Below, piece by piece: positions 12,983 to 34,349 of a stretch of 64,000 nt of DNA. The stretch spans positions 3,348,001-3,412,000 of the forward strand of contig NZ_CP060497.1 of the NCBI RefSeq assembly GCF_014334135.1, given 5' to 3'. Both the position numbers and the translations under genes were made by a program. Each line of letters opens with the position of its first letter. The first letter of the stretch is position 1. The notes below the pieces were generated by a model that searched no databases, was not told where the DNA came from, and was given only the letters and a program-made list of their open reading frames with translations. The DNA is from Olivibacter sp. SDN3. Its GTDB lineage: Bacteria; Bacteroidota; Bacteroidia; Sphingobacteriales; Sphingobacteriaceae.

Positions 12983-13109
12983 CTTTTACAGAGATTTCGC
13001 TAATAGTTGGTTTTAGTTATAGAACCCCGGTCCTGAGGGAGAGGGGTCTATTCGATCAATTAAACAAAAATACGGAATATACTTCAGGAATGGGGTATCG
13101 GGAAGGTGA

Positions 13110-13220: not shown

Positions 13221-13422
13221 GGCCAAAGGGGAAACAAAAGTGAGGATCGCCAAGGCGGATCGTCCGGAAGAGATTCTTGCTGATTTGAAGATAATGGGCG
13301 CAGGAGGGGAATGGCAGGAAGTAGAGACAGGATTGAGAAACTCCTTGGTAGGAGTACATGATCTTCAAATTTCTTTGCTGGAAGGCGATCCATTGGAAAT
13401 AGACTGGCTTTCTTTTCAGTAA
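13213..13422 (+). pseudogene. CBM6-like carbohydrate-binding domain, C-terminal remnant
   Basis: A frame open from 13213 to the TAA at 13420-13422 encodes RVRAKGETKVRIAKADRPEE, then GGEWQEVETGLRNSLVGVHD, then LEIDWLSFQ. The pattern (F.vRa+...V+I, W.evet, GvhDL, l.iDWlsF) is the second half of a CBM6 module as found at the end of GH43 enzymes; compare GIHDLYF..FDFDYWYF in the intact GH43-CBM6 at 14402-15754. The catalytic part is gone. It could be the tail of a deleted xylanolytic enzyme. Confidence 0.55.
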
Positions 13423-13472
13423 TTAAGGAGAAGAATGTGGCAATTTTCTAAACCGGCCGGGAAGAAGTGTAA

Positions 13473-14336
<864 letters not shown>

Positions 14337-14401
14337 TGAGGATCGCGGATTTGTAAAGAGACTACATGTAAAATTCATGATTAAATAAGAAACAAGATTA
14401 A

Positions 14402-15754
14402 ATGATGATAAAGTTTCGTAACTATATTTTATTAAGTGGATTGCTGTCAATAGGAGTGCTAACAACTAGTCGTGCTCAGAATCCAGTTGTACAGACGATA
14501 TATACAGCGGATCCAGCGCCAATGGTTTATCAGGATACGGTTTTCCTTTATACCGGCCATGATGAAGAAGGGGCTACCTTTTTCACGATGAATGATTATA
14601 AAGTCTATTCAAGTACGGATATGGTTAACTGGACGGATAGAGGCACCCCGCTATCTTATCAAACTTTCAATTGGGCAAAGGGAGATGCCTGGGCTGCTCA
14701 TTGTATCGAGCGAGATGGGAAATTTTATTGGTACGTTACGCTGACGGATAAAAAGTTGAACCGACCAGTGATTGGCGTAGCGGTATCAGATCATGCGACC
14801 GGCCCCTTTAAGGATGCTTTGGGAAAGCCGCTTGTGGCAGCAAATCAGGGAGACATCGATCCAGCAGCATTTATTGATGACGATGGGCAGGCCTATTTGT
14901 ATTGGGGGAATCCTAAATTATGGTACGTAAAACTGAATGAGGATATGATTTCCTATGACGGAGCGGTTATGGAGGAGCCATTGACTCCTGAGTCTTTTGG
15001 TAAGCGGGAAGGCGACTCCTTACGTTCCACTTTATACGAGGAGGCTCCCTGGCTATATAAAAGGCAAAACACCTATTACCTCTTTTATGCCGCTGGCGGT
15101 ATTCCGGAGTATTTGGCTTATAGTACGAGCGATAGCCCTGTTGGACCATGGTCTTATCAGGGTGTGGTGATGCCCACAGAAGGGCAGAGTTTTACCAATC
15201 ACCCCGGTGTGATAGATTTTAAGGGTAACAGCTACTTATTTTATCATAACGGCGCTTTACCTGGTGGGGGTGGTTTTGCACGCTCCGTAGCGGTGGAGCC
15301 TTTTAGTTTTGGTGAAGATGGGACAGTGCCGGAACTTAAAATGACTTCTGGAGTGAAAAATGCGATACATCCAGTAGATGCCTTTCGACGTGTAGAGGCA
15401 GAAACCATGGCATTTTCCGAAGGTGTAAAAACGGAGGAACAGCCGAAGATTGGAGTTTTCGTTACAAGTATACAAAATGGCGACTGGCTTAAAGTTAGAG
15501 GAGTTGATTTAAAAGATGGTGCTGAACGCTTCAAAGCAGCAGTAAAAACTAAGGCGGGTGGCTCAATCGAAATAAGAATGGATGACCCCTCTGGTCCGTT
15601 GCTTACTACCTTGAAGGTTGCAGGTGATCACCATTGGCAGGAGTTGACGGCAACCGATCTACAAACAATAAAAGGAATTCATGATTTATACTTTGTGTTT
15701 AAAGGAGAAGGGGAGAATGACTTATTTGATTTCGATTACTGGTACTTTGAGTAA
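14402..15754 (+). CDS. GH43 enzyme with C-terminal CBM6
   Basis: A 450-residue secreted protein (signal peptide ending near TSRAQ). The GH43 propeller (about 28-320) has base Asp37 in YTADPAP, the modulator Asp in DIDPAAFID and the acid Glu in LYEEAPWLYK. A CBM6 domain follows (about 325-450: VEAETMAFSEG; NGDWLKVRGVD; GIHDLYFVFKG; DFDYWYF). This arrangement is common for arabinofuranosidases or xylosidases acting on arabinoxylan side chains; the exact specificity cannot be read from sequence. It ends 46 nt before a strong hairpin shared with the convergent GH43 gene. Confidence 0.9.
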   Translation: MMIKFRNYILLSGLLSIGVLTTSRAQNPVVQTIYTADPAPMVYQDTVFLYTGHDEEGATFFTMNDYKVYSSTDMVNWTDRGTPLSYQTFNWAKGDAWAAHCIERDGKFYWYVTLTDKKLNRPVIGVAVSDHATGPFKDALGKPLVAANQGDIDPAAFIDDDGQAYLYWGNPKLWYVKLNEDMISYDGAVMEEPLTPESFGKREGDSLRSTLYEEAPWLYKRQNTYYLFYAAGGIPEYLAYSTSDSPVGPWSYQGVVMPTEGQSFTNHPGVIDFKGNSYLFYHNGALPGGGGFARSVAVEPFSFGEDGTVPELKMTSGVKNAIHPVDAFRRVEAETMAFSEGVKTEEQPKIGVFVTSIQNGDWLKVRGVDLKDGAERFKAAVKTKAGGSIEIRMDDPSGPLLTTLKVAGDHHWQELTATDLQTIKGIHDLYFVFKGEGENDLFDFDYWYFE

Positions 15755-15903: not shown

Positions 15904-17484
15904 TTACTTTATGTCTGTGGGAAGGGTTTCCAGATCGATACGGAAGAAATCAAAATCTGCGTAGCCGCCGATTTCTTTCTGTGCGTAGTTAAACAATGCG
16001 AAACGGTATCCCATAAAATGTGGAATGGTATACTTCATTTTCAGGACATCCCCAATTCGTTTCCAATTTTTACCATCCACACTATACGCGAAGACAGCCT
16101 CATCTTTTCCTACCTGGAAGTCACACCAGGCCTTGAAAAATACTTTCTTTTCGCTGAAAGATACTTTTTGTATAATTTCTTTTTCTCCTTTTTCTGGATT
16201 TTGCATCACAACGGCTGGCTCGCCATTCTTTATTTCGACACCGATTAAGCCGTATTGTTGCTGCAATAGCCCGAGACCTGCGAAATCGCCTTCTTTCATG
16301 TTTGAGAAATCAATGGATGTTTCGCCACTGGAGTATGGACCTATTGTACGTTGTGTAAGGGTATTTTTCGCCGACAGAAAGCTGGTGTCTATCCGAATGG
16401 TTTTTAACCGCAGGTAACCTTTGCGTTCATTGAGTGACCACGCTGAGTTGTCAGGGTTGTGATTCCATTGCCAAACTAAGGGGAGAGGCTCCGCTCCGCG
16501 TTTTCGATCAAATTCATCAGAGTCGACAATTCCCGGAATCAAATCTTTACTAGCAGGAAGATTCAAAACTTCGGGTACTTTACCGTCGATTCCAATTACT
16601 GGCCAGTCATTTTGCCACTTTACCGGTACAAGGTAAGGGATGCGTCCAACAGCACCTGCATCCCTGAAAAGATAGGCATACCACTCTCCACCTGGTGTGC
16701 TGATCACCCCCCCTTGAGCTACACCTTGATCTTGTAATGCAATCCGCCCTTCATAAGGCCCCGTGAGCTTGTTGGCACGGTGTACCACTACCGTCCGCAT
16801 ACCGCCTTTCGGCCAAGTGATATTAAAGATATAATATTTTCCATTGATTTTGAAGAGCTGGGAACCTTCAGCGGGCAAACCGATGTTATCTCCTGAAGGC
16901 GCACTGGCATTTTCAATGAGTACGTGCTCTTTGGTGCCGGGCTTTACTGCGGTGGCGTCCGAAGTGAGCTCGATCATTTTCAGTTTTCCACCACCGTATA
17001 CCATGTAAACGCGACCATCATCTTCAAAAAACAAGCTATGATCATGATATGCCGGACTGAAAGACGCTACTTTCCACGGACCCTTCTCAATATCCTGAGT
17101 ACTGTATATATACGTTTTATCGGTGGTCTGTGCAAATGTGCTCACATAATAGGTGCCATTGTGGTACCGGATACTGCTCGCCCACGAACCCCAGCCATAA
17201 GTGCTCTGGCCATTTTCAAGGGTCAAGGCGTCAACGCTGTCCAGTGTATCGTAAGCGTAACTGACCATCTCCCAGTTGACGAGGTCTTTAGACTTCATGA
17301 TCGGCACACCGGGATTCATATGCATAGTTGTGCTACTCATGTAGTAAGTGTCTCCCACACGGATCATGGCGATATCGGGCACATCAGCATAAATGATAGG
17401 GTTATGCGCCGATTGTGCAAACGTACAAACAGTCGATAGAAGACAAATGCAAGTAAGGAATAAAATAAAACGTATTTTTCTCAT
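15904..17484 (-). CDS. GH43 enzyme, two-domain (subfamily 12-like)
   Basis: A 526-residue protein with a signal peptide (FLTCICLLSTVCTFAQ). GH43 features are NPIIYADVPDIAMIRVGDTY at the start of blade 1 (base Asp), YHDHSLFFEDDGRVYMVYGG, and the acid Glu in GLPAEGSQLFKINGKYY. A C-terminal beta-sandwich begins around residue 310 (IVDSDEFD...PLPLVWQWNHNP). This organisation is typical of exo-acting arabinofuranosidases or xylosidases. It follows the first SusCD pair on the same strand, but a strong terminator (17653-17698) separates them. No TTTARACATT-type operator was found in its 243-nt upstream gap, so its expression may depend on readthrough or another signal. Confidence 0.88.
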   Translation of the reverse strand: MRKIRFILFLTCICLLSTVCTFAQSAHNPIIYADVPDIAMIRVGDTYYMSSTTMHMNPGVPIMKSKDLVNWEMVSYAYDTLDSVDALTLENGQSTYGWGSWASSIRYHNGTYYVSTFAQTTDKTYIYSTQDIEKGPWKVASFSPAYHDHSLFFEDDGRVYMVYGGGKLKMIELTSDATAVKPGTKEHVLIENASAPSGDNIGLPAEGSQLFKINGKYYIFNITWPKGGMRTVVVHRANKLTGPYEGRIALQDQGVAQGGVISTPGGEWYAYLFRDAGAVGRIPYLVPVKWQNDWPVIGIDGKVPEVLNLPASKDLIPGIVDSDEFDRKRGAEPLPLVWQWNHNPDNSAWSLNERKGYLRLKTIRIDTSFLSAKNTLTQRTIGPYSSGETSIDFSNMKEGDFAGLGLLQQQYGLIGVEIKNGEPAVVMQNPEKGEKEIIQKVSFSEKKVFFKAWCDFQVGKDEAVFAYSVDGKNWKRIGDVLKMKYTIPHFMGYRFALFNYAQKEIGGYADFDFFRIDLETLPTDIK

Positions 17485-17652
17485 AATAATAGCGGTACAG
17501 CAACAAGATACTGATCTTGATGTAATAAAATACGAGAATCTAAAATTATTTCATTAGTACCCTATTTTCAAGAAATCAATATCATGCGCCTGATTGTTTT
17601 TTTAAAAGTCTATTTTAAGTACTATATTTAATTCTGAAGGTGCAAATAATAT

Positions 17653-17698
17653 AGTTTGACAAAACCGCTATGCGTTTGCATAGCAGTTTTGTCAAACT
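17653..17698 (-). terminator. long hairpin terminator after susD
   Basis: A 21-nt left arm (17653-17673, AGTTTGACAAAACCGCTATG + C) and right arm (17678-17698) pair with a single mismatch around a GTTT loop. It lies 30 nt after the stop of the minus-strand susD and should end the susC-susD transcript. Confidence 0.85.
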
Positions 17699-17727
17699 GG
17701 GACTTGGGTTATTTACATATTTGTTGA

Positions 17728-19512
17728 TTACTGTCCGGCATAACCTGGATTTTGCGAGAACGGCGGCCCTTCTGTCACCAAATCTATCTGTTGTTGTGGG
17801 ATAGGTCGTAGGAGGTGGAAGTCTCTTACATTGGGTCCGCCTTCAAGATTGTATCTGGAAACCCGGTCTACAAGTGTTTGTGTTCTCGCGAGGTCCCACC
17901 AACGTGTATATTCACCATACATTTCCCGTGTACGCTCGTCAAGAATGAAATCAATATCTACATCGCCCGCTGTAATGGTTTGTGCGGTAAGCGCTGCGCT
18001 GTATTCTGCCTCAGTCTGGCCTGGCTGATAGGCAGCACGTCTGCGAAGTACGTTCAGCATATCGGCCGCTTCTTGTAGACTGGCACCACCTTTAAATGCA
18101 GCCTCAGCAGCGATAAGGTACACTTCAGCAAACCTGTATAGGATGAAAGGCCTATCCGAATAATCGTTCATGTCCACGCGTGTAGAGTCATCCCATTTCC
18201 GAAGACTGGGAAACATATTTCCAGTGAAGGGCACCGTTGCGCCCGACAAATGCTCGGGCTCCAGAATTATACCCTTGAAGTTTGCCCTTTCTTCGGCAGA
18301 TACTACCCGGTCTACACACCAGATGGCAGTATCTACCTGATTGATCAATTGTCCGCGGGGTGTTACTGCGCCTGCACTTCCTGAAGGTGCTTCCGGCATG
18401 CTGTTCGACAGCCAAATGGTTTGGAAGGTGCCGTGATAACGACTATCATGAACGCGGTCGGCAAATGCAACATCCAAGATATAGCGCATATTGGGACGAA
18501 TACGCTGCCATGGCCGTCCGTTGGGTACGTCACGCATAACAAGCGGGTCTCCACCACCTTCTGGATAGTTTGCATTAATAGTCGGATAGTTAGGCCGGAA
18601 GAAGAAGTTCGATTTATTTTCGCTAAGTTCCGTAGCACCAGCTCCCGGGGGCGAGTTTTGGCCAAACTTCAGATCGGCCGTACGATCAACGACCATTATC
18701 GTTTCCGGACCATATTCATTACCTTCTAGGAAAGCTTCCAAGAAATATGGCCAAAGGTCAAGACCATACAGGCCTTTGTTGTCTATAAGTTCTTTAGCGA
18801 GATTATAGGCATTGGTGAAATCTTCCGGTTGTGCCACGTCCGACCAGCCACGCCACAAATAGGTCTTTGCAAGCAGAAACAGGGCAGTAGCTTTATATGC
18901 AGGTTTACCCAAGCTCGCATCGGGCTGGTTAGGCAGGTCATTAATAGCAACCGTGAAATCTTCAATAATGGCATTGTAAACCTCGGCTTTGGGGCTACGT
19001 GAGTCTGCAGATGATACACTCGTATTGTACTCCAAATGTAGAGGCACATCGCCAAATGTAGTTACGAGATGATAATAGCAGAAAGCCCGGAGAAATCGAG
19101 CCTGTGCAAAAAGCCGTGTTTTTTGATCCTCCGGGATATCAGACTCCTCACCAAACTGAAATACACCGTTTAACGTGTTGATATTAATGTACATACTATT
19201 CCATAGACCTGCGTAATCATTGGCATTACTTGCCATTAGCGGAGAATAGGTGAAAAAGTGCTGCACGTCTGCGGCAGATCCACGGATCATCTCATCGCTG
19301 CCGCCATTGAATAATTGTGTGAATATTTGCGTTCCCCAGTGGCCTCTTAACGAAGAATACACGCCGGCAATACCACCTTCAATACCTTCAGGAGTACGGA
19401 AGAAAGCAGGATCGATACTGGCTCGCGGTTGCTCGTCCAGAATCTTGGTGCAACTCGCTTGAAAAATTAGTGCTGTTAAACCGATTAAGATTGCTTTATA
19501 TTGTGTTTTCAT
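17728..19512 (-). CDS. SusD/RagB-family outer-membrane glycan-binding lipoprotein
   Basis: A 594-residue lipoprotein with lipobox FQASC (Cys21), then the SusD opening TKILDEQPRASIDPAFF. Helical TPR-like segments (RFLRAFCYYHLVTTFGDVPL; ALFLLAKTYLWRG) and the C-terminal AEVYLIAAEAAF, NVLRRRAAY, DERTREMYGE and HLLRPIPQQQIDL...NPGY are all family hallmarks. SusD proteins cap the SusC porin and bind the oligosaccharide. It starts 16 nt after the susC stop. The substrate is inferred as xylan or arabinoxylan from the surrounding GH10 and GH43 genes. Confidence 0.95.
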   Translation of the reverse strand: MKTQYKAILIGLTALIFQASCTKILDEQPRASIDPAFFRTPEGIEGGIAGVYSSLRGHWGTQIFTQLFNGGSDEMIRGSAADVQHFFTYSPLMASNANDYAGLWNSMYININTLNGVFQFGEESDIPEDQKTRLFAQARFLRAFCYYHLVTTFGDVPLHLEYNTSVSSADSRSPKAEVYNAIIEDFTVAINDLPNQPDASLGKPAYKATALFLLAKTYLWRGWSDVAQPEDFTNAYNLAKELIDNKGLYGLDLWPYFLEAFLEGNEYGPETIMVVDRTADLKFGQNSPPGAGATELSENKSNFFFRPNYPTINANYPEGGGDPLVMRDVPNGRPWQRIRPNMRYILDVAFADRVHDSRYHGTFQTIWLSNSMPEAPSGSAGAVTPRGQLINQVDTAIWCVDRVVSAEERANFKGIILEPEHLSGATVPFTGNMFPSLRKWDDSTRVDMNDYSDRPFILYRFAEVYLIAAEAAFKGGASLQEAADMLNVLRRRAAYQPGQTEAEYSAALTAQTITAGDVDIDFILDERTREMYGEYTRWWDLARTQTLVDRVSRYNLEGGPNVRDFHLLRPIPQQQIDLVTEGPPFSQNPGYAGQ

Positions 19513-19528
19513 AATTTTTCGTATTGAT

Positions 19529-22500
19529 TTAAAAGTTAAGGTTTACACCAAATATAAACTGCCGGGTAGGAGGAACGCCCATACCAACGGTGATGGCACG
19601 TTCAACAACCGGTGTACCGCCAACTGGTGTTCCTACAGCGTTACCATAACCATTTCCTTCAGGATCTATACCTAAGCCGTCGCGTATCAGCGGTGCCCAA
19701 AGGATAAATGGATTTTGCGCTGATGCGTAGAGGCGAAGGGAGCCAATGCCGAGATTGGAAAGGTAGCGCTCCGGAATGTTGTAACCAAGGGTAATTGTTC
19801 TGAGTTTAATAAACGAGCCATCGCGATAGGATAAGGTACTGGTATATTCCAATGCATCTCTGCTTGCGTCCGGTTGAGGAAAAGCATTTGTTGGATTATC
19901 GGGTGTCCAATAGTCGACCTTATACTGGTTAACCCTACTGTTTCCGAAGAAAGGGTAACCCGCCGCACCTCCATCTGCGGTTAGGTAATTGGCAACTACC
20001 GTTTGACCAAATCGACCGAAAGCGACGATGTTCAGATCGAAGTTTTTGTAGGAAAAACGATTACTAAGACCTGCAACAAAATCCGGCTGGAAATTACCAA
20101 TTACCTGACGATCTTCTGCATCGATTATACCATTCTGATCGACGTCTTCGATTTTGATATCTCCAGGAAAAGCACCATATACCGCTGCCTGTTCCGCCTC
20201 ATGACTTTGCCATATACCAATTTTTTTTACGTCAAAAATTACAGTCATCGGTTGCCCCACGTACCAACCATTACCGATATCTTCAGTAAGGCCGGGTTGT
20301 AGCTCCACTATCTTTTCGCGGTTTAAAGAAAAGTTTGCATCGCTCTCCCAACGGAACCCTCCATCGGTATTGACATTAATGCTGGTTAACGTAGCTTCAA
20401 AGCCATTTCCAGCTGTTTTTCCTTGGTTGATCAACACAGAATTGGCTCCGTTACTTCTGGGAAGCTCCTTACTTAACAAAATGTCACGGGTGGTGATATT
20501 ATAATATTCTAGAGCGCCAGAAAGTCGACCGCCAAAGAGACTGAAGTCGAGTCCGATATTATAGCCCTTCGTAGATTCCCATGTTAGGTCAGGATTGGGT
20601 AAGGTGTTGAAAACATATCCCCCAACGAGGTTATGATTGGCAAGGGTACCCCGGCCATAATTATAAAAGTTTGACGTTAAGCTACCTATGGTGGTATATG
20701 GGCTGATCGTTTGGTTGGAGGATACTCCCCAACCCGCACGGAGCTTCAAATCATTAATAAAACCAACCTGTTGCATGAAGCTTTCCTCACTGACGTTCCA
20801 TCCAGCGGAAATAGCTGGGTAGGTAAACCATTGGTTTCCGGGTGCAAGTACGGAAGATCCGTCACTTCTTACCGTTGCCGTAATCATGTATTTATTGTCA
20901 TAAGAATAGAATGCCCGTCCCATGTAGGCCATTAGTCCTCGTTCATTAAATATGCCGGCCTCTGGATTTACGGCGTTAATTAACTGGAAGTTGTAGTCTT
21001 GTATGTAGTCTGCCGGTACGCCTTGCCCTTGAAAGCCCTGCTCTTGAAAATGGTTTTTAACTATTTCGAACATCGCAGTACCTTGGATACGATGCTTTTC
21101 GGCAAATGTTTTTTCATAGGTCAGCCGGTGATCAATTGTGTATTGCCATTGCTCCGTATTGCGCTGCATGACATTGGATCCAGCGGTTGAGGTGTTTAAG
21201 TTGAAGACAGTCCCTGGACCAAAGTAGTCGCTGTTACGTGTCTGGATCCAGTCTAAGGTAAGTGTACTCCTGAATTTTAATTCGTCTAGTATAGACACTT
21301 CACCATAAAGATTACTCAATGTTCTAAACCGTCTGGTATGTGCTTTGATTTTATCATTATTTCCGATAGATGTCAAAGGACTCATTTGATTGGCATCGTT
21401 TGACTGCTGAAAAGCAGGCATCATGTTGATACTTCCATCTTCGTTATAGGGAAGGTAAAGCGGACTGAGTCTTAGGCCAGCACTATACGCATTGACGCCA
21501 ACACGATTGGCGTAACTCATGGTATTATTGGTCGTGATACCAATGCGCAGTCGCTTGCTCAATTGATGATCAATGGCTATGCGGAATGATCCGCGGTCAA
21601 ATCGCTGATCATGGACAATACCCGTCTCCCGGAAGAAACCACCACCGAAACTATACTGCGTGGCTTCATTTCCACCGACCACACTGAGGTTGTGATCCGT
21701 TCTTATACCTGTCGTAAGTAGGAGGTTTTGCCAGTCTGTACTGACTCCATTAGCGAGGTTTTGCTGCTCTATGGGCGTTAGCGGGTTGGGGTGGGGGCCA
21801 TCCGGGTTGGGCTGGCCGCGTCTAGCCGCTTCCTTAAATGCAGCGTATTCTTCTCCGTTAAATACATCATAGGTGTCCAGAGCAGAAGAAATTCCGAAGA
21901 AACCATTATATGAAGCTCTCGCTTTGCCTGCCTGTCCGCGTTTTGTCGTGATGATGATAACACCACCAGAGCCTCTTGATCCATAAATAGCAGTCGCTGA
22001 CGCGTCCTTGAGAATATCCATGGATTCAATATCGTTCGGATTGATATCGTTAATACTGCCCCCTGAAATGGCTATTCCGTCGACTACTAATAGCGGACCG
22101 TTCTGTGCATTATTTGCGCCTGACGATGTTGCTAGAGATCGGTTCCCGCGAATCCTAATCTCACCGCCTGTACCGATTTGGTTGCTATTGTTGACAATGT
22201 CTACGCCCGCTGCGCGACCCTGGAGCTGATTATAGATGTTTGGTGCACCAACCTCCCGCAAAGTTTCTCCTTTAACGGAAACCGTAGAGCCGGTCAGGTC
22301 TTTTTTTCGCTGCGTTCCATAACCGATGACAACAACCTCGTCCATATCTAAAGCCTGCGAGCCAAGTTCAATATTAAAGTTAGCACCGCTGCTGATCACA
22401 ATTTCACGAGCACGGTAACCCACGCTGGTTACAACTAGAATTTCACCATTATCTGCATCAATAGCAAAATTTCCCTGCTCATTGGAACTTGTGCCGCGGG

Positions 22501-22699
22501 TAGTCCCCTTGATCTGTATTGTTGCGCCGACAATTGCTTGGCCATCTTCCGTCATTATCCTCCCTTGAATTGCGCTTTGTTGGGCAAAGGTCGGACTGAT
22601 ACCCATTAATAAGAGTATGGGAAGTAGGTAACCGAAACATATCCGGTAGACGCCGGGGGTATTTGTTAGTTTTTTTTCTACATGGTTCATTTTTTTCAT
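19529..22699 (-). CDS. SusC/RagA-family TonB-dependent transporter
   Basis: A 1056-residue outer-membrane importer. After the signal sequence (ending GISPTFAQQ) comes a carboxypeptidase-regulatory-like domain (IQGRIMTEDGQAIVGATIQI), the SusC linker MDEVVVIGYGTQRKKDLTGS, a plug domain (RGRAAGVDI-type segment; MDILKDASATAIYGSRGSGG) and a 22-strand barrel ending in the aromatic F (FIFGVNLNF). It imports oligosaccharides bound by the adjacent SusD. It is read divergently from the HTCS gene, and the predicted HTCS operator lies in the intergenic region, so induction by xylo-oligosaccharides is likely. Confidence 0.95.
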   Translation of the reverse strand: MKKMNHVEKKLTNTPGVYRICFGYLLPILLLMGISPTFAQQSAIQGRIMTEDGQAIVGATIQIKGTTRGTSSNEQGNFAIDADNGEILVVTSVGYRAREIVISSGANFNIELGSQALDMDEVVVIGYGTQRKKDLTGSTVSVKGETLREVGAPNIYNQLQGRAAGVDIVNNSNQIGTGGEIRIRGNRSLATSSGANNAQNGPLLVVDGIAISGGSINDINPNDIESMDILKDASATAIYGSRGSGGVIIITTKRGQAGKARASYNGFFGISSALDTYDVFNGEEYAAFKEAARRGQPNPDGPHPNPLTPIEQQNLANGVSTDWQNLLLTTGIRTDHNLSVVGGNEATQYSFGGGFFRETGIVHDQRFDRGSFRIAIDHQLSKRLRIGITTNNTMSYANRVGVNAYSAGLRLSPLYLPYNEDGSINMMPAFQQSNDANQMSPLTSIGNNDKIKAHTRRFRTLSNLYGEVSILDELKFRSTLTLDWIQTRNSDYFGPGTVFNLNTSTAGSNVMQRNTEQWQYTIDHRLTYEKTFAEKHRIQGTAMFEIVKNHFQEQGFQGQGVPADYIQDYNFQLINAVNPEAGIFNERGLMAYMGRAFYSYDNKYMITATVRSDGSSVLAPGNQWFTYPAISAGWNVSEESFMQQVGFINDLKLRAGWGVSSNQTISPYTTIGSLTSNFYNYGRGTLANHNLVGGYVFNTLPNPDLTWESTKGYNIGLDFSLFGGRLSGALEYYNITTRDILLSKELPRSNGANSVLINQGKTAGNGFEATLTSINVNTDGGFRWESDANFSLNREKIVELQPGLTEDIGNGWYVGQPMTVIFDVKKIGIWQSHEAEQAAVYGAFPGDIKIEDVDQNGIIDAEDRQVIGNFQPDFVAGLSNRFSYKNFDLNIVAFGRFGQTVVANYLTADGGAAGYPFFGNSRVNQYKVDYWTPDNPTNAFPQPDASRDALEYTSTLSYRDGSFIKLRTITLGYNIPERYLSNLGIGSLRLYASAQNPFILWAPLIRDGLGIDPEGNGYGNAVGTPVGGTPVVERAITVGMGVPPTRQFIFGVNLNF

Positions 22700-22884: not shown

Positions 22885-22952
22885 CAAAGCTACAAGAGTA
22901 TTATGGAGCACTGTTAGTAAGAATGTCTAAATTACCAGTAAAAATGTCTAAA
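22885..22952 (-). promoter_or_regulatory. predicted HTCS operator and promoter of susCD pair 1
   Basis: Read on the minus strand, TTTAGACATTTTTACT (from 22952) and TTTAGACATTCTTACT (from 22931) are direct repeats 21 nt apart, identical at 15 of 16 positions. TAGCTTTG (22892-22885), a -7 box of TAnnTTTG type, starts 60 nt after the first unit. No TTG-type -33 box sits 19-21 nt upstream of it. The susC start is 185 nt further on. The site lies in the gap facing the HTCS gene, and the same layout recurs at 11042, 27294 and 37717. Confidence 0.72.
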
Positions 22953-23092
22953 TATATGCGTGAGTAGTCTTTTTAGGTAGCTGAGATATTTAATTTTATT
23001 TTTAATGCAAACGTTGGAATAATTTTTTAACTTAGCATTTAACTAACGATTATTCGACACTGGTGGGGTTAGCCTCCCAAGAAACCTATTTT

Positions 23093-26000
23093 ATGCGTGC
23101 ACGGATACTTATTATACCTGAAATAATTATCAAGATGTTATTTGGTGTACTGATTTGTACGCCGATATCTATTCTTAGCCAAGAATTACCACGGAGTTTT
23201 AAAACATATTCAGCCGAAGATGGCCTGTCTTCAAGCACAATTTATGATATTTTGAAAGATGAGTTTGGTTTCCTATGGCTTGCTACTGAAGACGGATTAA
23301 ACCGTTTTGATGGCACGACGTTTAAGAGCTACCGGTATGACCCGCAACAGGCCGGTGGTCTCAGAACTAACCATGTCACGGCATTGCATGAAGGTGGCGA
23401 TGGTTCGTTGTGGATTGGCACAAATGGTGGAGCACTTAGTTTTTATGATAGAAGTAGAGATTCCATTATCAGCTATGAGGTCGAGATTGACCACCGCGAC
23501 TTTAGCACTGCAATTACGGCTATTGCATCCGATAACAACGGGTTTGTCTGGGTTGCTTCATATGGTGGGCTATATATTATTGATGCCAAGACCAAACATG
23601 TTGTGGATCGTCCGGCATATAATGCGGTAATGAATCAATTGAACGGAATGAACTCCCTAACGCTATTTTACGATAGTCAGGAACGAATGTGGATTGGCAC
23701 AGATGAGGGGCTATTTCTCTATACAAAAGATTTGACGCTAAACAAGCACTACAGATCTTCAAACGGAATTGAAGGATTAGCCGATAACGAGGTAATGGCT
23801 ATTGCTGAAGATAGCAAAAAGCGGATGTGGATAGGTACCATGAACGGTATCAGCCTGTTCAACCCAAATGGTAGCCATAATCGAAATTTCAACACAAGCA
23901 CCACGAATGGGCGGATAAGTAGCAACACGATATATGCTTTGGCTACCGACGGAGATAGCGGTGTCTGGGTGGGTACGGATGAAGGGCTGGATATATTGGA
24001 TATTTCATCCTTTACCTCTACGCATATTCGACCAAATAGCCGAGAGGTTCACAGTTTAAGCAGTCGGTCTATCCGTTCCATTCTCATTGATCATGCTGGG
24101 ATTTATTGGATAGGAACATTTCAGGGTGGATTGAATAAATATGACAAGAACTTGAGCCATTTCGTACTGAAGGAGTCTAACCCCTTCGACCCATCTGGCT
24201 TACGAGCTCCCGTCGTAACCTCATTTGCCGAACATGAGGGTAATGCTTTTGTTGGAACAGACGGTGGTGGACTCCATTTTTATAATCGCAATTTAGATTT
24301 ATTTGAACATATAGAACTGGAAAGTTCGACGAACGATCGTCCGCATGATCTTAATATTCTGGCCATGACGATGACCCGTAACGGTAAATTATGGATAGGG
24401 ACATATCACGATGGACTGTTTGGTTATGATCCGCTCAAGAAAGTAACAAAGCGTTATCACAAAGGGAACAATGCGAAAGACTTAAATCACAATGATGTTT
24501 TTTGCGTAAAAGAAGATCGCCAGCAAAGGCTCTGGATTGGTACGAATGGAGGAGGGATAAACATATTGAGCAAATCGGGAGATCAAATAGAAAAATATGT
24601 CCATCAATCCTCGAATGAAGGCGATCCCAGACAGCCGTCAAGCAATTACATCCGTGCTCTGGAGGAGGACAGCAAAGGGCAGATGTGGGTAGGGACCTAT
24701 GGTTCAGGAATCTCTGTTTTTAATCCCGAGACTGGGCGTTTCGTCTTTTATACAAAACAAAACAGCGCTTTACCCAGCAATTATATTCTGGCAATCAAAG
24801 AAGATCAAGCGGGGAATATCTGGGTAGGGACAGAGGGAAATGGGGTTGGGCTTTTGAAAAGAGGCGATACTTCTTTTCAGACATTTTCAGAAACTGATGG
24901 ATTGATCAACAGTGTCGTTGTAAATATCGTCGAAGATCAATCCGGTAAGTTATGGTTCAGTACCAATAGGGGGTTGACTTGTTATGAAGCTTCGCAAGAG
25001 AAGTTTAAAAGTTATTCCAGGCAGGTAGGTCTGCAGTCCGGAGCCTTCATGCGGGGGGCAGGCATCTGTCTTGCTGATGGGGCACTTTTTTTCGGTGGGC
25101 AGAAAGGCATGAATTATTTTCATCCCGAAAATCTGAAGACAAATTATAACGTTCCACCAGTGGTATTGACCGATCTCATGGTTAATAACAAGTTGGTTGA
25201 ACCAACTACCGATGGCCCCATTAAGGTTCCGCTTATGCTTTCCAGTGAAGTTAGACTCAAATATAGGCAGAACTTCGCTATCGCTTTTGAAGCACTGAAC
25301 TTTACAGCACCGGAACAGAATAATTATATGTATCGACTGGAGGGCTTTGATAAGACCTGGATGCCTGTTGGTAAGGAGCATAGTGCATATTATACGAACT
25401 TGGATCCGGGCACATACACGTTCCATGTAAAAGCAAGTAACAATGATGGTATCTGGAATGAAGATGGTACGTCGATTACTGTTTTTGTTGCACCTCCCTT
25501 TTGGCGAACCAATTTCGCCTATGCGATGTATATATTGTGTTTCCTCGGAGGGGGCTGGTACATGCGTCATCGCGGGATTAAAAAATTAAGGGCCAATTTT
25601 GCGGTGGAGCAGGAAAGATTGCGTTCCAAACAGCTGATTGAACAAGAACGGCAGGAAGCCGAGCATTTACATCGCTTAGATCGTATGAAAATCAAGTTTC
25701 TGACCAACTTAAGCCACGAGTTTCGTACACCAATTTCCCTGATCATGGGACCTGTAGATCAACTTTTAACTACGATAAAAGACGATGGTACCTCCAGTCA
25801 GCTAACATTAATAAAACGAAATGCAAGAAGGTTGTTGAATTTGGTAAACCAGCTTTTGGACTTTCGAAAAATGGAAGAGCAGGAGGTCAAACTCCATTGC
25901 AGTAGAGGTAATATTGTAGCATTTCTAGAGGAGGTTAGCGATGTCTTTAATGATATGGCCTTAAGGAAAAAGCTGGATTACGCATTTTACAGTGAATTGG

Positions 26001-27268
26001 AAACCTTGGATGTCGTTTTTGATCACGATAAGATTGAGCGTATACTTTTTAATCTCTTGTCAAACGCGTTTAAGTTTACACCCGAAGGCGGAACTATCAC
26101 AATAGGTCTTGATGAAAAGGCTGAGCTGTCTGATGATAACTATGTGAGTCTCTTCATAACGGTTAAGGATACCGGTATTGGAATTCCAAAGCAAGATCAG
26201 GAGCGTATTTTCGACAGTTTTTTTCAGCATGATGTTGGGGAAGTAGTGCTCAATCAGGGAACGGGCATTGGCTTGGCTATAGCGCGGACTTTCGCACAAA
26301 TGCACGGGGGAAGACTCGATGTAAGCAGTGAATTGGGCAAAGGAAGCTGCTTTTCGTTGCACCTCCGTCTTAAGCGGGCCTTTGGCTTACCGGTATTCGA
26401 AGCATCGCGCCTACTAGGTGAGATGGATACTATTGATGAATCTGCAAGCGATCTGCCAGCAACAACCAATACGTCTGATCTTCCATCTTTGCTGATTATA
26501 GAAGACGATGATGATTTTCGCTTTTATATTAAAGACAATCTGAAATCATCCTGTCAAGTGTTTGAAGCGTCAAATGGAAAAGAGGGATGGCAGCGAGCAC
26601 TCTTTCATCATCCTGACATTATTGTTTGCGATGTACATATGCCGATCATGAATGGATTGGAATTGGTACAAAAGCTTAAAGCTGACCGTCGGACGAAGCA
26701 TATTCCCGTTATTTTATTAACGGCTGCCGAAGCCAAAAATGGTCTTCTGTGTAGCTTGGAGTGCGGTGCGAGTGATTACATCACCAAGCCTTTTGACTTT
26801 GCAGTATTACAGGCCAAGGTCAATAGTTTATTAACGTTAAATCAAGCATTAAAAGATACTTATTCAAAACAGCTGTCCATCGAAGCTCCGAAAGCAGTGA
26901 TTGTTTGTGAGAAGGAACGGTTTTTAAAGAAAGTGGCCGCCTTTATTTATGAGAATATGGGGAACACGCAGCTGTCGGTAGAAACTTTAAGCGCTTACCT
27001 TGCCATTAGCCGCGCGTCGCTCTATAACCGACTTCTGGCCTATACAGGAATGACTCCTGTGGATTTTATACGTTCTGCAAAATTAGAACGCGCAGCTTTG
27101 CTTTTAGAGAAAAGTGATATGACCGTAGCAGAAGTAGCCTATGAAACAGGTTTTGCAAATCCAAATTATTTCACTAAAGTGTTTAAAGGGAAGTATCAAC
27201 AAACACCTTCGGAATTTATCTTATCCGTTAGGAAAGGCAATCGGAATGTTTTGATAACAGAGAATTAA
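23093..27268 (+). CDS. hybrid two-component system regulator (HTCS)
   Basis: About 1391 residues from the ATG at 23093; an in-frame GTG at 23063 would put ten residues before the signal sequence. Order: signal/anchor (IIIKMLFGVLICTPISILSQ); a periplasmic sensor of 14 or so Reg_prop beta-propeller repeats (LWIGT.GGGL type); a Y_Y_Y domain (YRLEGFDKTWMPVG ... PGTYTFHVKASN); one transmembrane helix; HisKA with His in NLSHEFRTPISLI; HATPase (NLLSNAFKFTP, DTGIGIP); a receiver with Asp in IIVCDVHMPIMNG; and an AraC helix-turn-helix (ETGFANPNYFTKVFKGKYQQ). Such proteins sense oligosaccharides in the periplasm and activate the local PUL. It sits between the first SusCD and the GH10 gene, and is the obvious candidate to bind the 21-nt-period repeats. 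Confidence 0.95.
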   Translation: MRARILIIPEIIIKMLFGVLICTPISILSQELPRSFKTYSAEDGLSSSTIYDILKDEFGFLWLATEDGLNRFDGTTFKSYRYDPQQAGGLRTNHVTALHEGGDGSLWIGTNGGALSFYDRSRDSIISYEVEIDHRDFSTAITAIASDNNGFVWVASYGGLYIIDAKTKHVVDRPAYNAVMNQLNGMNSLTLFYDSQERMWIGTDEGLFLYTKDLTLNKHYRSSNGIEGLADNEVMAIAEDSKKRMWIGTMNGISLFNPNGSHNRNFNTSTTNGRISSNTIYALATDGDSGVWVGTDEGLDILDISSFTSTHIRPNSREVHSLSSRSIRSILIDHAGIYWIGTFQGGLNKYDKNLSHFVLKESNPFDPSGLRAPVVTSFAEHEGNAFVGTDGGGLHFYNRNLDLFEHIELESSTNDRPHDLNILAMTMTRNGKLWIGTYHDGLFGYDPLKKVTKRYHKGNNAKDLNHNDVFCVKEDRQQRLWIGTNGGGINILSKSGDQIEKYVHQSSNEGDPRQPSSNYIRALEEDSKGQMWVGTYGSGISVFNPETGRFVFYTKQNSALPSNYILAIKEDQAGNIWVGTEGNGVGLLKRGDTSFQTFSETDGLINSVVVNIVEDQSGKLWFSTNRGLTCYEASQEKFKSYSRQVGLQSGAFMRGAGICLADGALFFGGQKGMNYFHPENLKTNYNVPPVVLTDLMVNNKLVEPTTDGPIKVPLMLSSEVRLKYRQNFAIAFEALNFTAPEQNNYMYRLEGFDKTWMPVGKEHSAYYTNLDPGTYTFHVKASNNDGIWNEDGTSITVFVAPPFWRTNFAYAMYILCFLGGGWYMRHRGIKKLRANFAVEQERLRSKQLIEQERQEAEHLHRLDRMKIKFLTNLSHEFRTPISLIMGPVDQLLTTIKDDGTSSQLTLIKRNARRLLNLVNQLLDFRKMEEQEVKLHCSRGNIVAFLEEVSDVFNDMALRKKLDYAFYSELETLDVVFDHDKIERILFNLLSNAFKFTPEGGTITIGLDEKAELSDDNYVSLFITVKDTGIGIPKQDQERIFDSFFQHDVGEVVLNQGTGIGLAIARTFAQMHGGRLDVSSELGKGSCFSLHLRLKRAFGLPVFEASRLLGEMDTIDESASDLPATTNTSDLPSLLIIEDDDDFRFYIKDNLKSSCQVFEASNGKEGWQRALFHHPDIIVCDVHMPIMNGLELVQKLKADRRTKHIPVILLTAAEAKNGLLCSLECGASDYITKPFDFAVLQAKVNSLLTLNQALKDTYSKQLSIEAPKAVIVCEKERFLKKVAAFIYENMGNTQLSVETLSAYLAISRASLYNRLLAYTGMTPVDFIRSAKLERAALLLEKSDMTVAEVAYETGFANPNYFTKVFKGKYQQTPSEFILSVRKGNRNVLITEN

Positions 27269-27293: not shown

Positions 27294-27360
27294 TTTTGAC
27301 ATTTTTATCTCTTTTTTATTCATAAGGAGCGATTCAATTTGCTGGCCTTACCTAGTTTTG
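27294..27360 (+). promoter_or_regulatory. predicted HTCS operator and promoter of GH10-GH3
   Basis: TTTTGACATTTTTATC starts at 27294 and a weaker unit TTTATTCATA at 27315, 21 nt later. The -7 box TAGTTTTG lies at 27353-27360, exactly 59 nt after the first unit. The GH10 ATG is 127 nt downstream. The first unit differs from the susC-1 unit at few positions; the second is degenerate. Confidence 0.65.
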
Positions 27361-27486: not shown

Positions 27487-28575
27487 ATGAAATCACTTCC
27501 GTATTTTCTTCTGAGCCTATGCTGCATTATTGTTGCAGAGCCAAGTCTCGCACAGCAACAGCAGGAGCTGGGACTAAAAGACTATTATCACAATTTGTTT
27601 CCTATAGGGGTGGCGGTCAATGGTCGGGCAATAAAAGGCGATGAAGCGGCATTGATAAAACAGGAGTTTAATAGTATTACAGCAGAAAATGCGATGAAAA
27701 TGGGACCGATACATCCTGAAGAAAATCGTTACAATTGGGGATTGGCCGATAGCATAGTGCATTTTGCTTCTGCCAACAATTTGCGTGTGCGTGGACACAC
27801 CTTACTATGGCATCAGCAAACACCTAAGTGGATTTTTGTAGACGAGAACGGGGATCAGGTAAGTAAGGAATTGTTGTTAAAACGTCTCCGCGAACATATA
27901 TTGGCAGTAGTGGGAAGGTACAAAGGAAAGATATATGCCTGGGATGTCGTGAATGAAGCGATAGATGATAACCCAGAGAAATTTTTGCGTGAGTCTAAAT
28001 GGATGGAAATTATTGGCGAAGAAGTTTTTGCAAGAGCTTTTGAATACGCGCACGAAGCTGACCCAGACGCGCTCTTATTTTACAATGATTATAACAGCGA
28101 ACGCCCGGAGAAGCGTGAACGCATCCTGCGCTTGTTGAAAAATTTGACGGAAGCAGGAGTGCCGATCCATGGTGTGGGATTACAAGGGCATTGGTCGATA
28201 TTTGAACCGTCGGAGACCGATTTGGAAGAGGCTATTGAACGCTACGCATCACTGGGGCTGCAATTGCATATTACAGAGTTGGATATGTCGGTCTATCCTT
28301 GGGAGAAGGAAAGACGACAGAAGCGGGCGGATGAGTCGGATGCTTATACACCGGAGCTCGAGCAAAAGCAAATCGATCAATTCGAGAAAGTTTTTGGTAT
28401 ATTCAGGAAGTATGCTGAACACATCACCAATGTTACATTTTGGAATGTTTCAGATCGTTATTCTTGGTTAGACCACTATCCGGTACATGGGCGTAAAAAT
28501 TACCCGCTACTTTTTGACCAAAATTTACAGCGAAAGAAAGCCTATTGGAAGGTAGTGGATTTTAAGAAGGATTAA
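27487..28575 (+). CDS. GH10 endo-1,4-beta-xylanase
   Basis: A 362-residue secreted enzyme (signal peptide ending VAEPSLAQ) that cleaves internal beta-1,4 bonds in xylan. The GH10 barrel covers nearly all of the protein: FNSITAENAMKMGPIHPEEN, then RGHTLLWHQQTPKW, the acid/base Glu157 in WDVVNEAI, VGLQGHW, and the nucleophile Glu264 in HITELDMS. Length is that of a single-domain GH10 without CBM. It lies 218 nt after the HTCS gene with its own predicted operator/promoter in the gap, and is followed by the GH3 gene, giving an endo/exo pair for xylan breakdown. Confidence 0.97.
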   Translation: MKSLPYFLLSLCCIIVAEPSLAQQQQELGLKDYYHNLFPIGVAVNGRAIKGDEAALIKQEFNSITAENAMKMGPIHPEENRYNWGLADSIVHFASANNLRVRGHTLLWHQQTPKWIFVDENGDQVSKELLLKRLREHILAVVGRYKGKIYAWDVVNEAIDDNPEKFLRESKWMEIIGEEVFARAFEYAHEADPDALLFYNDYNSERPEKRERILRLLKNLTEAGVPIHGVGLQGHWSIFEPSETDLEEAIERYASLGLQLHITELDMSVYPWEKERRQKRADESDAYTPELEQKQIDQFEKVFGIFRKYAEHITNVTFWNVSDRYSWLDHYPVHGRKNYPLLFDQNLQRKKAYWKVVDFKKD

Positions 28576-28701
28576 AATGAATACACAATAATGAAGTTGA
28601 AAAAGGCCAAATTCTAATACAGGACCATGGTGACATCGTGTATTTTAAAAATATCAAGATAAAAAAGCTTCCTTAAACTCGAATTATAAAATAGCGCGAA
28701 T

Positions 28702-31324
28702 ATGAAAAATATAAATGGCCTAGTGACTGCATTTCTTATTTTTTTTATCGCGATGCAGCTTCCGTTATACGGACAAAACCATGAATTTCCATTTGAAAAT
28801 CCACAGCTGTCCTTTGAAGAAAGAGTGACAGATTTGGTTCAGCGGATGACCTTGGAAGAAAAGGTCTCGCAAATGTTGAATGCTGCGCCGGCTATACCGC
28901 GGTTAAACATTCCTTCCTATGACTGGTGGAATGAAACTTTACACGGAGTTGCGCGTACACCGTTCCCGGTAACCGTTTATCCGCAAGCTATAGCGATGGC
29001 GGCTACTTTTGACACGACGGCACTATTTAAAATGGCCGACTATTCTGCTCTTGAGGGACGGGTCGTTTACAATAAGGCAGTGGCTATGGGGAGAACGAAT
29101 GAACGCTACTTAGGCTTGACTTATTGGACGCCCAATATCAATATTTTTCGTGACCCCAGATGGGGAAGGGGACAGGAAACATATGGCGAGGATCCATATT
29201 TGACTGCTGCATTGGGCAAAGCATTTGTAAGGGGTTTACAGGGCGACGATGAAAAATATTTAAAAGCTGCAGCATGTGCTAAACATTATGCTGTGCATAG
29301 CGGGCCCGAACCTGAACGTCATATTTTTAATGTGGATGTAAATGCCTATGACTTATGGGATACCTATTTGCCAGCATTTGAGGAGTTAGTGGTCGACGCA
29401 AAGGTTGCCGGTGTGATGTGTGCTTACAATGCCTTTCGCACACAACCCTGCTGTGGCAGTGATCTGTTGATGACCGATATAATGGGATTTCAAGGGTTAT
29501 GTAACTTCTGACTGCTGGGCGATAGATGACTTTTTTAAAAATCATAAAACACATGCGTCTGCAGCGGATGCGGCCGCAGATGCCGTATACCACGGCACGG
29601 ATTTGGATTGTGGTACCGACGCTTACAAAGCGTTGGTACAAGCTGTTAAGGAAGGTAAGATTACCGAAGAGAGTATTGATACATCTGTAAAACGCTTATT
29701 CATGATACGTTTTCGCCTGGGTATGTTCGATCCAGTATCTATGGTGAAATATGCGCAAACACCCGATTCTATCCTAGAATCCAGTATACATGGGAAGCAT
29801 GCGTTAGAAATGGCGCGAAGTTCAGCAGTATTATTAAAAAATGAGCAGCACACGCTACCGCTTCGTAAAAACCTAAAGAAAGTAGTTGTACTCGGTCCGA
29901 ATGCCGATAATGCAATTGCTATTTTAGGCAATTATAATGGTATTCCCTCAAAGTTATCTACGGTTCTAGACGGAATCCGGCAAAAGGTTGGAGCAGCGAC
30001 TGAAATTATATATGAGCAGGCAATAAATTTCACCAATGATACGCTCCTTACTTATGCCGAAATGGAGGGCAAATATACTTTTAATGGCAGGCCGGGTGTT
30101 CACGCCCGCTATTTTTCCAATACTGCGATGAAAGGAGATCCTATTTTCGAAAGATATGAAAATACTATTGATCACTTCTGGCAGGAAGGGGAAACTATTG
30201 CAGATGGATTACGTGCCAATGATTTCTCCGTTCACTTTCAGACCGATTTCCACGCAGATCATGATAGCCCCTTGGTGTTTGAAGTGGAAGCAGATGATGG
30301 ATATCGTCTTATTGTAAATGACGATACCGTTCTGAATGCGTGGGAGCGAAACCGTTGGGGAGCGAAAACGTATACACTTAACACTAAAAGAGATAGCGTT
30401 TATCATCTGGAATTGGAATACTGGCAAGGTGGGGGGAAAGGTAATATCCGTTTAAGTGCAGGAAATTTCCAAAGAACAGATTTTAAGCAGTTAGCCGAAC
30501 AGCATAAGGATACAGACGCATTTATATTTGTGGGAGGAATTTCTCCACAACTTGAAGGTGAAGAAATGCAGGTAGATTACCCGGGCTTCAATGGGGGAGA
30601 TCGCACCTCTATTTTACTACCGACGGTACAGACAGCATTGATGAAGGAACTCCAGGCAACAGGAAAGCCGGTTGTGTTTGTCATGATGACGGGCAGTGCG
30701 ATTGCCATTCCTTGGGAGGCAGATCATTTACCGGCGATTTTAAACGCATGGTATGGTGGGCAGGCAGCAGGTACTGCAGTAGCTGATATTCTGTTTGGTG
30801 ACTATAATCCATCCGGTCGTCTGCCAGTTACATTCTATCGTGGAGACGAGGATCTTGTGGCCTTCAACGACTACAATATGGATAATCGTACTTATCGCTA
30901 CTTTAAAGGTAAACCACTTTATGGGTTTGGATACGGTCTGAGTTACACATCGTTTAAGTACGAAGATGTTCAGCTTCCCAAAAAGTTAAAAAAGGGAGAG
31001 TCAGTTCAAGTTAAAACACGCGTCCGTAATGTCGGAGATAGGGATGGCGACGAAGTGGTACAGCTTTATATTGTAAACAGTAAGGGAAGGGATAAGATGC
31101 CACTAAAGTCGTTAAAGGGATTCCGACGCATTCACCTAAAAGCCGGAGAGGCGAAAGAGCTTACTTTTGAGCTATCCCCAAAAGCCTTATCATACGTCCA
31201 AGACGATGGTAGCAGCGCTTTGCTTGAAGGAGAAGTAGAAATTGCGATAGGAGGCGTTCAGCCCGGGGAACAGAATGATGTCAAGAATACGGACTTACAG
31301 AGAAGGACTGTGTATATCAATTGA
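28702..31324 (+). pseudogene. GH3 beta-xylosidase-type enzyme with PA14 insert, frameshifted
   Basis: Two frames make up one GH3 protein. The first (28702-29511) gives the signal peptide and most of the first domain (YDWWNETLHGVARTPFPVTV; NIFRDPRWGRGQETYGEDPY; AKHYAVHSGPE) and stops just before the nucleophile loop. The second continues in another frame from about 29494 with TSDCWAIDDFF, carrying the catalytic Asp, then a second domain with a PA14 insertion (ARYFSN...FSVHFQTDF) and a C-terminal fibronectin-like domain to 31324. One extra T in GGGTTATGTAACT near 29491 explains the break. A few residues before it also look deleted (TDIMGFQG). The enzyme would release xylose from xylo-oligosaccharides but cannot be made intact as read. 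Confidence 0.85.
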
Positions 31325-31637: not shown

Positions 31638-32729
31638 TTACTCAGTAAAGGGATCAATCATTGCAATTGTGCCATCTTCATGATGTGTTAGCTCAGTTAC
31701 TTTTACGTTACGTAAATGTGTTTTCCCCGAACGTTCAGTATCGTGATAGAAAAGATACCATTTACCATCAAACTCAACAATGGAATGGTGGGTAGTCCAG
31801 CCTTGCACGGGTTTCATGAAGTGTCCGGCGAAAGTAAAAGGCCCTGTTGGAGAATCACCTATGGCATATGCCAGAAAGTGTGTGTCGCCGGTAGAATAAC
31901 TAAAGTAATAGCGATCCTGGTATTTATGCATCCATGCACCTTCAAAAAATCGCCTATCATGGTCCCCTCCGAGGATTTCGTTCCCGGCACTATCGATTAG
32001 CTTTGCGTTTTGTACCTGACCATCAAATTCCACCATATTATCTTTTAGCTTAACTACCCTACAGCTAATCGCTGGCTGATTATCTTGCTCCAGATCAGTT
32101 AGAGACCCCGCTGCGTCATATTCATTGTTTTCCCATTGTTGCAACTGACCGCCCCAAATACCACCAAAATACATGTACGTACTGCCGTCAGTATCCGTAA
32201 ATACTGCTGGGTCAATACTGAAACTGCCTGCAATTGGTTCAGGAAGTGCTTTGAAAGGCCCTTCGGGAGAATGCGATGTAGCAACACCGATCCGAAAAAC
32301 ATCGTCCTTGTCTTTTGCAGGAAAATAGAGGTAATAGGTGCCGTCTTTGTAGGCTGCATCCGGAGCCCATAATTGTCTTGACGCCCAGGGAATGTCTTCG
32401 ACGGCTAATGCAACCCCGTGATCAGTTACATCGCCATCAATTTTGTCCATGGAAAACACATGATAATCCCGCATTGCAAAATGGTCTCCGTTATCGTTTT
32501 CACTCGTTCCAGCATCGATGTCGTGTGAAGGATAAATATAAATTTTGCCATTGAACACGTGAGCTGATGGGTCTGCTGTATAAATTGAATCAATCAGTGG
32601 AGAAGAGCGAAATTGTAGGGTGTCGTTGGCGGCTACCTCATCAGACTCTTTTTTCTGTTCTTGATTACAACTAGCAAACGCTAGCAGTATACATGTTGAT
32701 AATGTACTAAGATTTGCGAAATTTCTCAT
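31638..32729 (-). CDS. GH43 lipoprotein (subfamily 1-like), xylosidase / arabinofuranosidase
   Basis: A 363-residue single-domain GH43 with a lipobox (LLAFASC). Base Asp in IYTADPSAHVFNGKIYIYPS, modulator in SIDPAVFTDTDG, acid Glu in RFFEGAWMHKYQ, and TTHHSIVEFDGKWYLFYHD at the last blade. The pattern YTADPSAHVF..KIYIYPSHD is typical of GH43 subfamily 1 exo-enzymes acting on xylo- and arabino-oligosaccharides. It follows susD by 49 nt on the same strand and is probably the third gene of the susC-susD operon under the predicted HTCS promoter at 37.7 kb. Confidence 0.9.
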   Translation of the reverse strand: MRNFANLSTLSTCILLAFASCNQEQKKESDEVAANDTLQFRSSPLIDSIYTADPSAHVFNGKIYIYPSHDIDAGTSENDNGDHFAMRDYHVFSMDKIDGDVTDHGVALAVEDIPWASRQLWAPDAAYKDGTYYLYFPAKDKDDVFRIGVATSHSPEGPFKALPEPIAGSFSIDPAVFTDTDGSTYMYFGGIWGGQLQQWENNEYDAAGSLTDLEQDNQPAISCRVVKLKDNMVEFDGQVQNAKLIDSAGNEILGGDHDRRFFEGAWMHKYQDRYYFSYSTGDTHFLAYAIGDSPTGPFTFAGHFMKPVQGWTTHHSIVEFDGKWYLFYHDTERSGKTHLRNVKVTELTHHEDGTIAMIDPFTE

Positions 32730-32778
32730 TTGTTTTTTCTATATACGTATTAAAAATAAAGTTTTCTCGATTTACAAT

Positions 32779-34338: not shown

Positions 34339-34349
34339 CCGATTTGCGT

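Follow-up and report, generated by a model that had tools for sequence, protein, structure and literature searches.

Paired 21-nt-period sites at a fixed promoter distance, probable operators of the HTCS in a xylan cluster

Four paired sites in the xylan cluster

Four gene runs of a xylan cluster are each preceded by a paired repeat, and the question is which protein binds it and how it acts on the promoters. The window is the whole 64,000-nt stretch of DNA that was analyzed, positions 3348001–3412000 of a 6.12-Mb single-contig genome, and the cluster occupies 11–38 kb of it. The cluster contains two susC/susD pairs, GH43 enzymes, GH10, GH3, an esterase, and one HTCS. Judged from the DNA and protein sequences, the paired site in the four promoters is very probably the binding place of the cluster's sugar-sensing regulator. 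The features are listed in order of position.

11042..11078, + strand: operator A, upstream of GH43; distal unit 11042–11057, proximal unit 11063–11078 (weak)
11101..11108, + strand: box TACTTTTG (−7 box) of promoter A; offset 59
11237..15754, + strand: gene run after A; GH43 (11237–12982), esterase, GH43-CBM6
15904..22699, − strand: gene run after B; susC1, susD1, GH43
22885..22892, − strand: box TAGCTTTG (−7 box) of promoter B; offset 60
22916..22952, − strand: operator B, upstream of susC1; distal unit 22952–22937, proximal unit 22931–22916; matches the consensus perfectly
23063..27268, + strand: HTCS (Reg_prop, Y_Y_Y, HisKA, HATPase_c, receiver, HTH_18), the proposed binder
27294..27330, + strand: operator C, upstream of GH10; distal unit 27294–27309 (good), proximal unit 27315–27330 (degenerate)
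27353..27360, + strand: box TAGTTTTG (−7 box) of promoter C; offset 59
27487..31324, + strand: gene run after C; GH10, GH3 (two open frames)
31638..37502, − strand: gene run after D; susC2, susD2, GH43
37651..37658, − strand: box TAGCTTTG (−7 box) of promoter D; offset 59
37681..37717, − strand: operator D, upstream of susC2; distal unit 37717–37702, proximal unit 37696–37681

The coordinates and strands that the initial annotation gave for the four paired sites are exact. Each site consists of two 16-nt units with a period of 21 nt. The distances from the start of the distal unit to the start of TAnnTTTG (59, 60, 59, and 59 nt for A, B, C, and D) are also as claimed. The start proposed for the HTCS, 23093, was not; the open frame runs 23063–27268 from a GTG. 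TAnnTTTG is found at the −7 position of all four window promoters, a placement made by the box motif. The distal/proximal letter scores, at 15 letters per unit and against a unit consensus derived from the window's own sites, are 15/15 for B, 14/15 for D, 13/10 for A, and 13/8 for C. The susC sites B and D are therefore the strongest, as had been noted; they have near-perfect unit pairs and share the box TAGCTTTG. Every site is a direct repeat of two conserved units; in A and C the proximal unit is weak, scoring only 10 and 8 of 15.

By gene order, the four operators head four gene runs whose extents as operons are putative. The susC genes were named by plug and CarbopepD_reg domains adjoining susD. 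A 517-nt gap separates GH43 from the esterase in run A, and the esterase and GH43-CBM6 may have their own promoter. In run C, GH3 is split over two frames, the N-terminal domain at 28702–29511 and the C-terminal, PA14, and Fn3 domains at 29603–31324, and is a broken gene or a sequence error. Elsewhere in the window, a single 1458-aa frame (38536–42912) fuses an RND pump (ACR_tran) with an outer-membrane efflux protein domain, and a topoisomerase IB gene (46733–47803) adjoins a phytochrome-type histidine kinase (47913–50132).

Conservation of the sites and the proposed mode of action

The gapped pattern ACATT-N-TTAY-N(44–45)-TAnnTTTG, which joins the distal core to the box, has four matches in the 6.12-Mb genome, and these are exactly sites A–D. 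The reversed control has none. The pattern was written from the four sites, so only its absence elsewhere is informative. Searching the genome for the pair pattern with up to three mismatches returned B and D only, with one control match. Allowing one mismatch across the whole genome gave nine extra matches compared to 12 control matches, which is background, and further genomic targets were rejected because the extra matches were no more numerous than those of the control.

Four congeners were searched, and two of them have an HTCS orthologue with 63% identity; the loci of these two and their flanks were compared. In a held-out test, the window-derived pair score was applied to 80 kb covering the orthologous loci of these two congeners. 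At a pair score of 21, eight places carried an exact TAnnTTTG, always at 59 or 60 within the tested offsets of 40–89. A score of 20 added one place at offset 81, and 30 dinucleotide shuffles at this score gave no match at offsets 59/60. With looser scores and offsets of 58–61 permitted, all 14 matches in the window and seven congener stretches lay at 59 or 60. The earlier judgment that chance is unlikely for the group agrees with both the genome-wide uniqueness and the held-out test.

The two congeners have 10 sites at 59 or 60, located in each at susC1, susC2, GH10, a divergent site, and a second HTCS gene. Sites upstream of operons in the HTCS's own susC/D locus are thus kept in other genomes, and conservation at orthologous promoters was seen for the B, C, and D types. 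Operator A was not recovered at the GH43a genes of the two congeners, and the case for it therefore comes from the window.

The same operator precedes, at offset 59, a second HTCS gene (28% identical) in both congeners (L117:4422, +; L118:13663, −), which suggests that one HTCS may control another. A further site stands back to back with the susC2 operator of the congeners (L040:10028, +; L041:4575, −) and has an exact box at 60 and 59, respectively. No frame of at least 100 aa starts within 700 nt of this divergent site, and it could possibly serve a small RNA or a short gene.

It is unlikely that the HTCS binds the two susC promoters only and that the matches at A and C are chance or relics. 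The low proximal scores of A and C and the missing A site at the congeners' GH43a genes are what such a history would leave, but the GH10 promoters of both congeners retain the site, with a good distal unit, a degenerate proximal unit, and an offset of 60. In five genomes from another genus, the promoters that directly follow the HTCS show the same asymmetry. The proximal unit scores at least 11 of 15 in 14 of the 15 susC rows; rows just downstream of the HTCS score 7–8 in the proximal and 13–14 in the distal unit in eight of eight cases. Because the unit asymmetry is conserved, the enzyme promoter may need more active HTCS.

The reading we favor, with a probability of about 0.84, is that the four elements are operators of the HTCS at 23063–27268 and that it activates the four gene runs through an AraC-like class II contact. 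The HTCS would sense xylan oligosaccharides and phosphorylate its own receiver. Paired AraC-type DNA-binding domains would then bind the two 16-nt units, which would face the same side of the helix at a distance of two turns. Since the end of the proximal unit is 22–23 nt upstream of TAnnTTTG, just above the −33 position, bound HTCS could touch the primary sigma factor and bring about transcription start, like AraC at araI1–I2. The four gene runs would be switched on together, presumably by activation rather than repression, from predicted start points and over the predicted operons. By analogy with AraC, class II activation is likely, and the regulator may stand in for a weak or absent −33 element.

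An HTCS that binds these sites but partly represses, or that activates from upstream without sigma contact, is also unlikely. A precedent is given in the accessible text on BT0366 of B. thetaiotaomicron, which acts in trans to repress several loci and co-precipitates with regions close to several of these (PMC3404733). A register that varies by no more than 1 nt and places the proximal unit immediately above −33 suits direct activation instead, and the targets are the HTCS's own xylan genes.

The HTCS DNA-binding domain and the promoter register of related HTCSs

A DNA scan and a protein search were compared across the family. The 201 family genomes were scanned with the DNA pattern alone, and the HTCS DNA-binding domain was used in a separate search. 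A pattern match was present in 12 of the 13 genomes whose HTCS domain reaches 63% identity or more compared to 36 of the 188 others (p = 1.1e-7), and in 11 of 12 when the window's genome was excluded (p = 4.4e-7); the 63% cut was picked after viewing the list, in which the next value is 60%, and the counts were tallied by hand. These Fisher values overstate independence because the 13 genomes fall in two genera, three in the window's genus and ten in one other. Matches and controls numbered 32 and 8 in the 13 genomes and 47 and 48 in the other 188. Within the other genus alone, 9 of 10 genomes had a match compared to 4 of 24 (p = 1e-4). Motif similarity thus tracks the similarity of the DNA-binding domain, except in one genome (G178) that has a 63% identical domain yet no pattern match. 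A named genome collection yielded 13 loci, from distant relatives only.

Eight genomes of the other genus were examined. In five of them, the matches adjoin an HTCS that is 52–54% identical overall and 67–75% identical in the domain, and the sites precede a divergent susC and the gene that directly follows the HTCS. Most other-genus rows were found by a pattern that fixes ACATT-N-TTAY and the 44–45 gap, so their invariance is partly by construction. The nearest match in G174, G209, and G215 is ~40–45 kb from the HTCS, and the stretch around the G215 match has no HTCS. G112 and G194 (L111:10341, −; L120:10278, +) have a related repeat of 21-nt period, its box at 60, which diverges from an HTCS with just 34–35% identity in the DNA-binding domain; no site was found in a second G112 stretch.

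The nine aligned motif-bearing rows, which include one gene twice, have in common the recognition-helix stretches SRASLYN[RK]LL and ANPNYFTKVFK. This pair is not shared by any of the seven HTCSs compared from the loci designated 48% orthologue. Three HTCSs with a receiver-domain identity of 58–60% (L167, L169, and L170) also have SRASLYNK, and their genomes have no exact pattern match; the first helix alone is therefore not diagnostic.

The HTCS receiver has KHIP at residues 1212–1215, and matching by eye places a T at residue 1308 of the DNA-binding domain, where D is usual. KHIP without the D occurs in all nine motif-bearing rows, and KHIP is also present in 11 of 92 other HTCS rows. According to the accessible text of Gao et al., most Bacteroides HTCSs have S/CHIP in the receiver, and deviations in S/CHIP and the D are linked to different control of binding (PMC11253607).

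The repeats could instead be bound by another DNA-binding protein, for example another AraC-type regulator, with the HTCS merely nearby. At least three other HTH_18/AraC-type genes are present in the window (490–1527, 51979–52845, and 56552–57325), and AraC-type proteins generally favor repeats of this kind. These genes lie outside the 11–38 kb cluster, however, and the motif follows the HTCS DNA-binding domain and recognition helices across the family, which makes such a binder improbable. On balance, this evidence favors the HTCS over the other AraC-type genes in the window. The initial annotation proposed the HTCS as binder, and by motif/domain association it is the best candidate for a binding that is predicted. 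That the sites are operators of the HTCS at 23063–27268 is well supported by these sequence comparisons.

The distance to the promoter was analyzed in a motif-free test that scored the DNA upstream of TAnnTTTG for self-identity in 16-nt words at periods of 14–30. In xylan-type loci, represented by 15 susC boxes of which some had been selected by motif, the peak lay at period 21 from −60, with 11.1 of 16 positions identical compared to an average of 4.75. The ~21 bp between sites thus appears in the units and in the motif-free self-similarity. The register test was set beforehand and then run on 40 new loci chosen by HTCS protein only, with a domain identity of 44–60%. Self-similarity at these related loci peaked at period 21 with a start range of −59 to −62. 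In the 75 boxes from 37 of the 40 loci, each of the ten best cells had period 21, with the top one at −61 to −59 (z 5.6); none of 1000 random-anchor permutations reached the observed value. The peak persisted when related promoters (68 distinct boxes, z 5.4) or xylan-type units (63 boxes, z 4.9) were removed, and the signal was also present in the 13 stretches designated 48% orthologue (14 boxes, z 4.4).

The 148 distinct boxes without a xylan-type unit, taken from all 96 non-xylan stretches, have ACAT at −54 in 14 cases and at −33 in nine, with a background of 0.79 per position; boxes in coding sequence of the same loci have it in five and two of 1355. Positions −54 and −33 are 21 nt apart and identical to the ACAT positions of the xylan operator. 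In the 75 boxes of the 40 loci, the predicted TTT at −38/−39 held partly (14 and 9 compared to a mean of 4.7), and −51 was higher (15). ACAT at −54 or −33 was found in 13 of 55 boxes before susC, HTCS, GH10, and GH43 homologues compared to 5 of 93 others (p = 0.0016).

The register was not seen in more distant HTCSs. At 43 other HTCS loci (full-length identity 31–40%), the best cell was period 22 for 71 boxes (z 3.0) and period 20 for the 70 boxes left after related promoters were removed (z 3.0). ACAT occurred at −54 in one and at −33 in none of these 70 boxes, and only 1 of the 18 promoters with ACAT at either position (L133) came from the 43 loci. The susC promoters, analyzed separately (12 exact boxes), gave no clear period peak. 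A register extending beyond the related HTCSs was rejected because period 21 does not stand out at the 43 loci, and the promoter register was therefore seen in one subfamily only.

The claim of a common operator with fixed promoter spacing was borne out by the genome-wide, congener, and family scans. The fixed placement looks like a rule common to related regulators. We consider it somewhat more probable than not that the subfamily follows a grammar in which half-sites with a RACAT core have a spacing of exactly 21 nt, occupy −54 and −33 counted from the start of TAnnTTTG, replace the −33 element, and carry flanking letters that follow the recognition helices. If this grammar is true, the targets of uncharacterized regulators could be read from sequence. 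A general promoter or sigma-factor element would be A/T-rich and at a fixed distance from the −7 box, as this element is, but the exact pattern occurs at only four places in 6.1 Mb and ACAT at −54/−33 is concentrated before the susC, HTCS, GH10, and GH43 homologues of the same loci, which leaves this explanation very improbable.

The −33 element and comparison with known systems

The initial annotation proposed that the regulator replaces a −33 box. None of the 29 aligned sites has TTTG 22–27 nt upstream of the box start, but most other promoters in these loci also lack it. The 29-row alignment left out L111:10341, L120:10278, and four low-scoring matches (17–18) without a downstream gene. The 116 non-site boxes show no TTTG peak near −23, and the missing TTTG was accordingly rejected as proof of replacement. 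In the 75 boxes of the later 40 loci, TTTG was commonest at −23 (six boxes). With an operator-sign split and TTTG/TTG patterns that were chosen after the data had been seen, TTTG at −22 to −27 was present in 0 of 32 operator-like boxes compared to 14 of 116 others (p = 0.04), TTG at −22/−23 in 0 of 32 compared to 19 of 116 (p = 0.014), and TTG at −22 to −26 in 3 of 32 compared to 31 of 116 (p = 0.056). These data hint weakly that the operator might replace a −33 box.

HTCSs are a major class of regulators for polysaccharide utilization in Bacteroides, according to the accessible text of Gao et al. (PMC11253607), and HTCS sites in the accessible HTCS literature are mostly predictions. The statement that no site was described for this regulator does not hold for its kind: direct repeats were already predicted for 16 B. 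thetaiotaomicron HTCSs (PMC3878776), and susC/D promoter binding was seen by EMSA (PMC11253607). In the accessible text of Ravcheev et al. (2013), the motifs for the 16 HTCSs are direct repeats with an average of 21 bp between sites, and the HTCS_Man motif consists of two 16-bp sites with a 5-bp spacer, which is the layout of the xylan units (PMC3878776). These operators share with ours the two-site direct repeat upstream of the regulator's own susC/D operons. They differ in belonging to another group of Bacteroidota and, as far as can be discerned, in their letters, and the accessible text gives no distance to the promoter (PMC3878776).

Gao et al. (2024) report by EMSA that BT4124 and BT4663 bind the bt4114 and bt4662 promoters. 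As in our proposal, the response-regulator part of an HTCS binds susC/D promoters, and binding there depends on phosphorylation; the glycans are different, and half-site mapping and promoter distance are not given in the accessible text (PMC11253607). In vivo HTCS binding was described by ChIP-seq in the accessible text of the 2012 study of BT0366/BT1754 (PMC3404733). A fixed distance between an HTCS operator and the −7 box was not found in the accessible text of these three papers (PMC3878776, PMC11253607, and PMC3404733) or of PMC4666351, PMC6874557, PMC10766802, PMC10994844, PMC11501099, and PMC12125979, a scope that excludes supplements and most subscription papers.

The direct-repeat HTCS operator as a kind is thus already known, and the fixed promoter register across an HTCS subfamily looks like the new, testable part. 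Regulator, operator, fixed promoter register, and target genes form one testable set. The register supplies a positional filter for target prediction that appears valid for related HTCSs, and it gives a concrete model by which fused sensors could switch on promoters with a weak or absent −33 element.

The closest parallel for the promoter arrangement is AraC at araI1–I2 of E. coli araBAD. The half-sites there are direct and 21 bp apart, and the promoter-proximal one is weaker and adjoins the −35 region. The xylan operators share the 21-bp distance; their proximal unit is the weaker one in A and C and, by its distance to TAnnTTTG, would lie next to the −33/−35 region. They differ in having a membrane-bound hybrid sensor as the proposed regulator, the Bacteroidota −7 box TAnnTTTG, and other letters in the half-sites.
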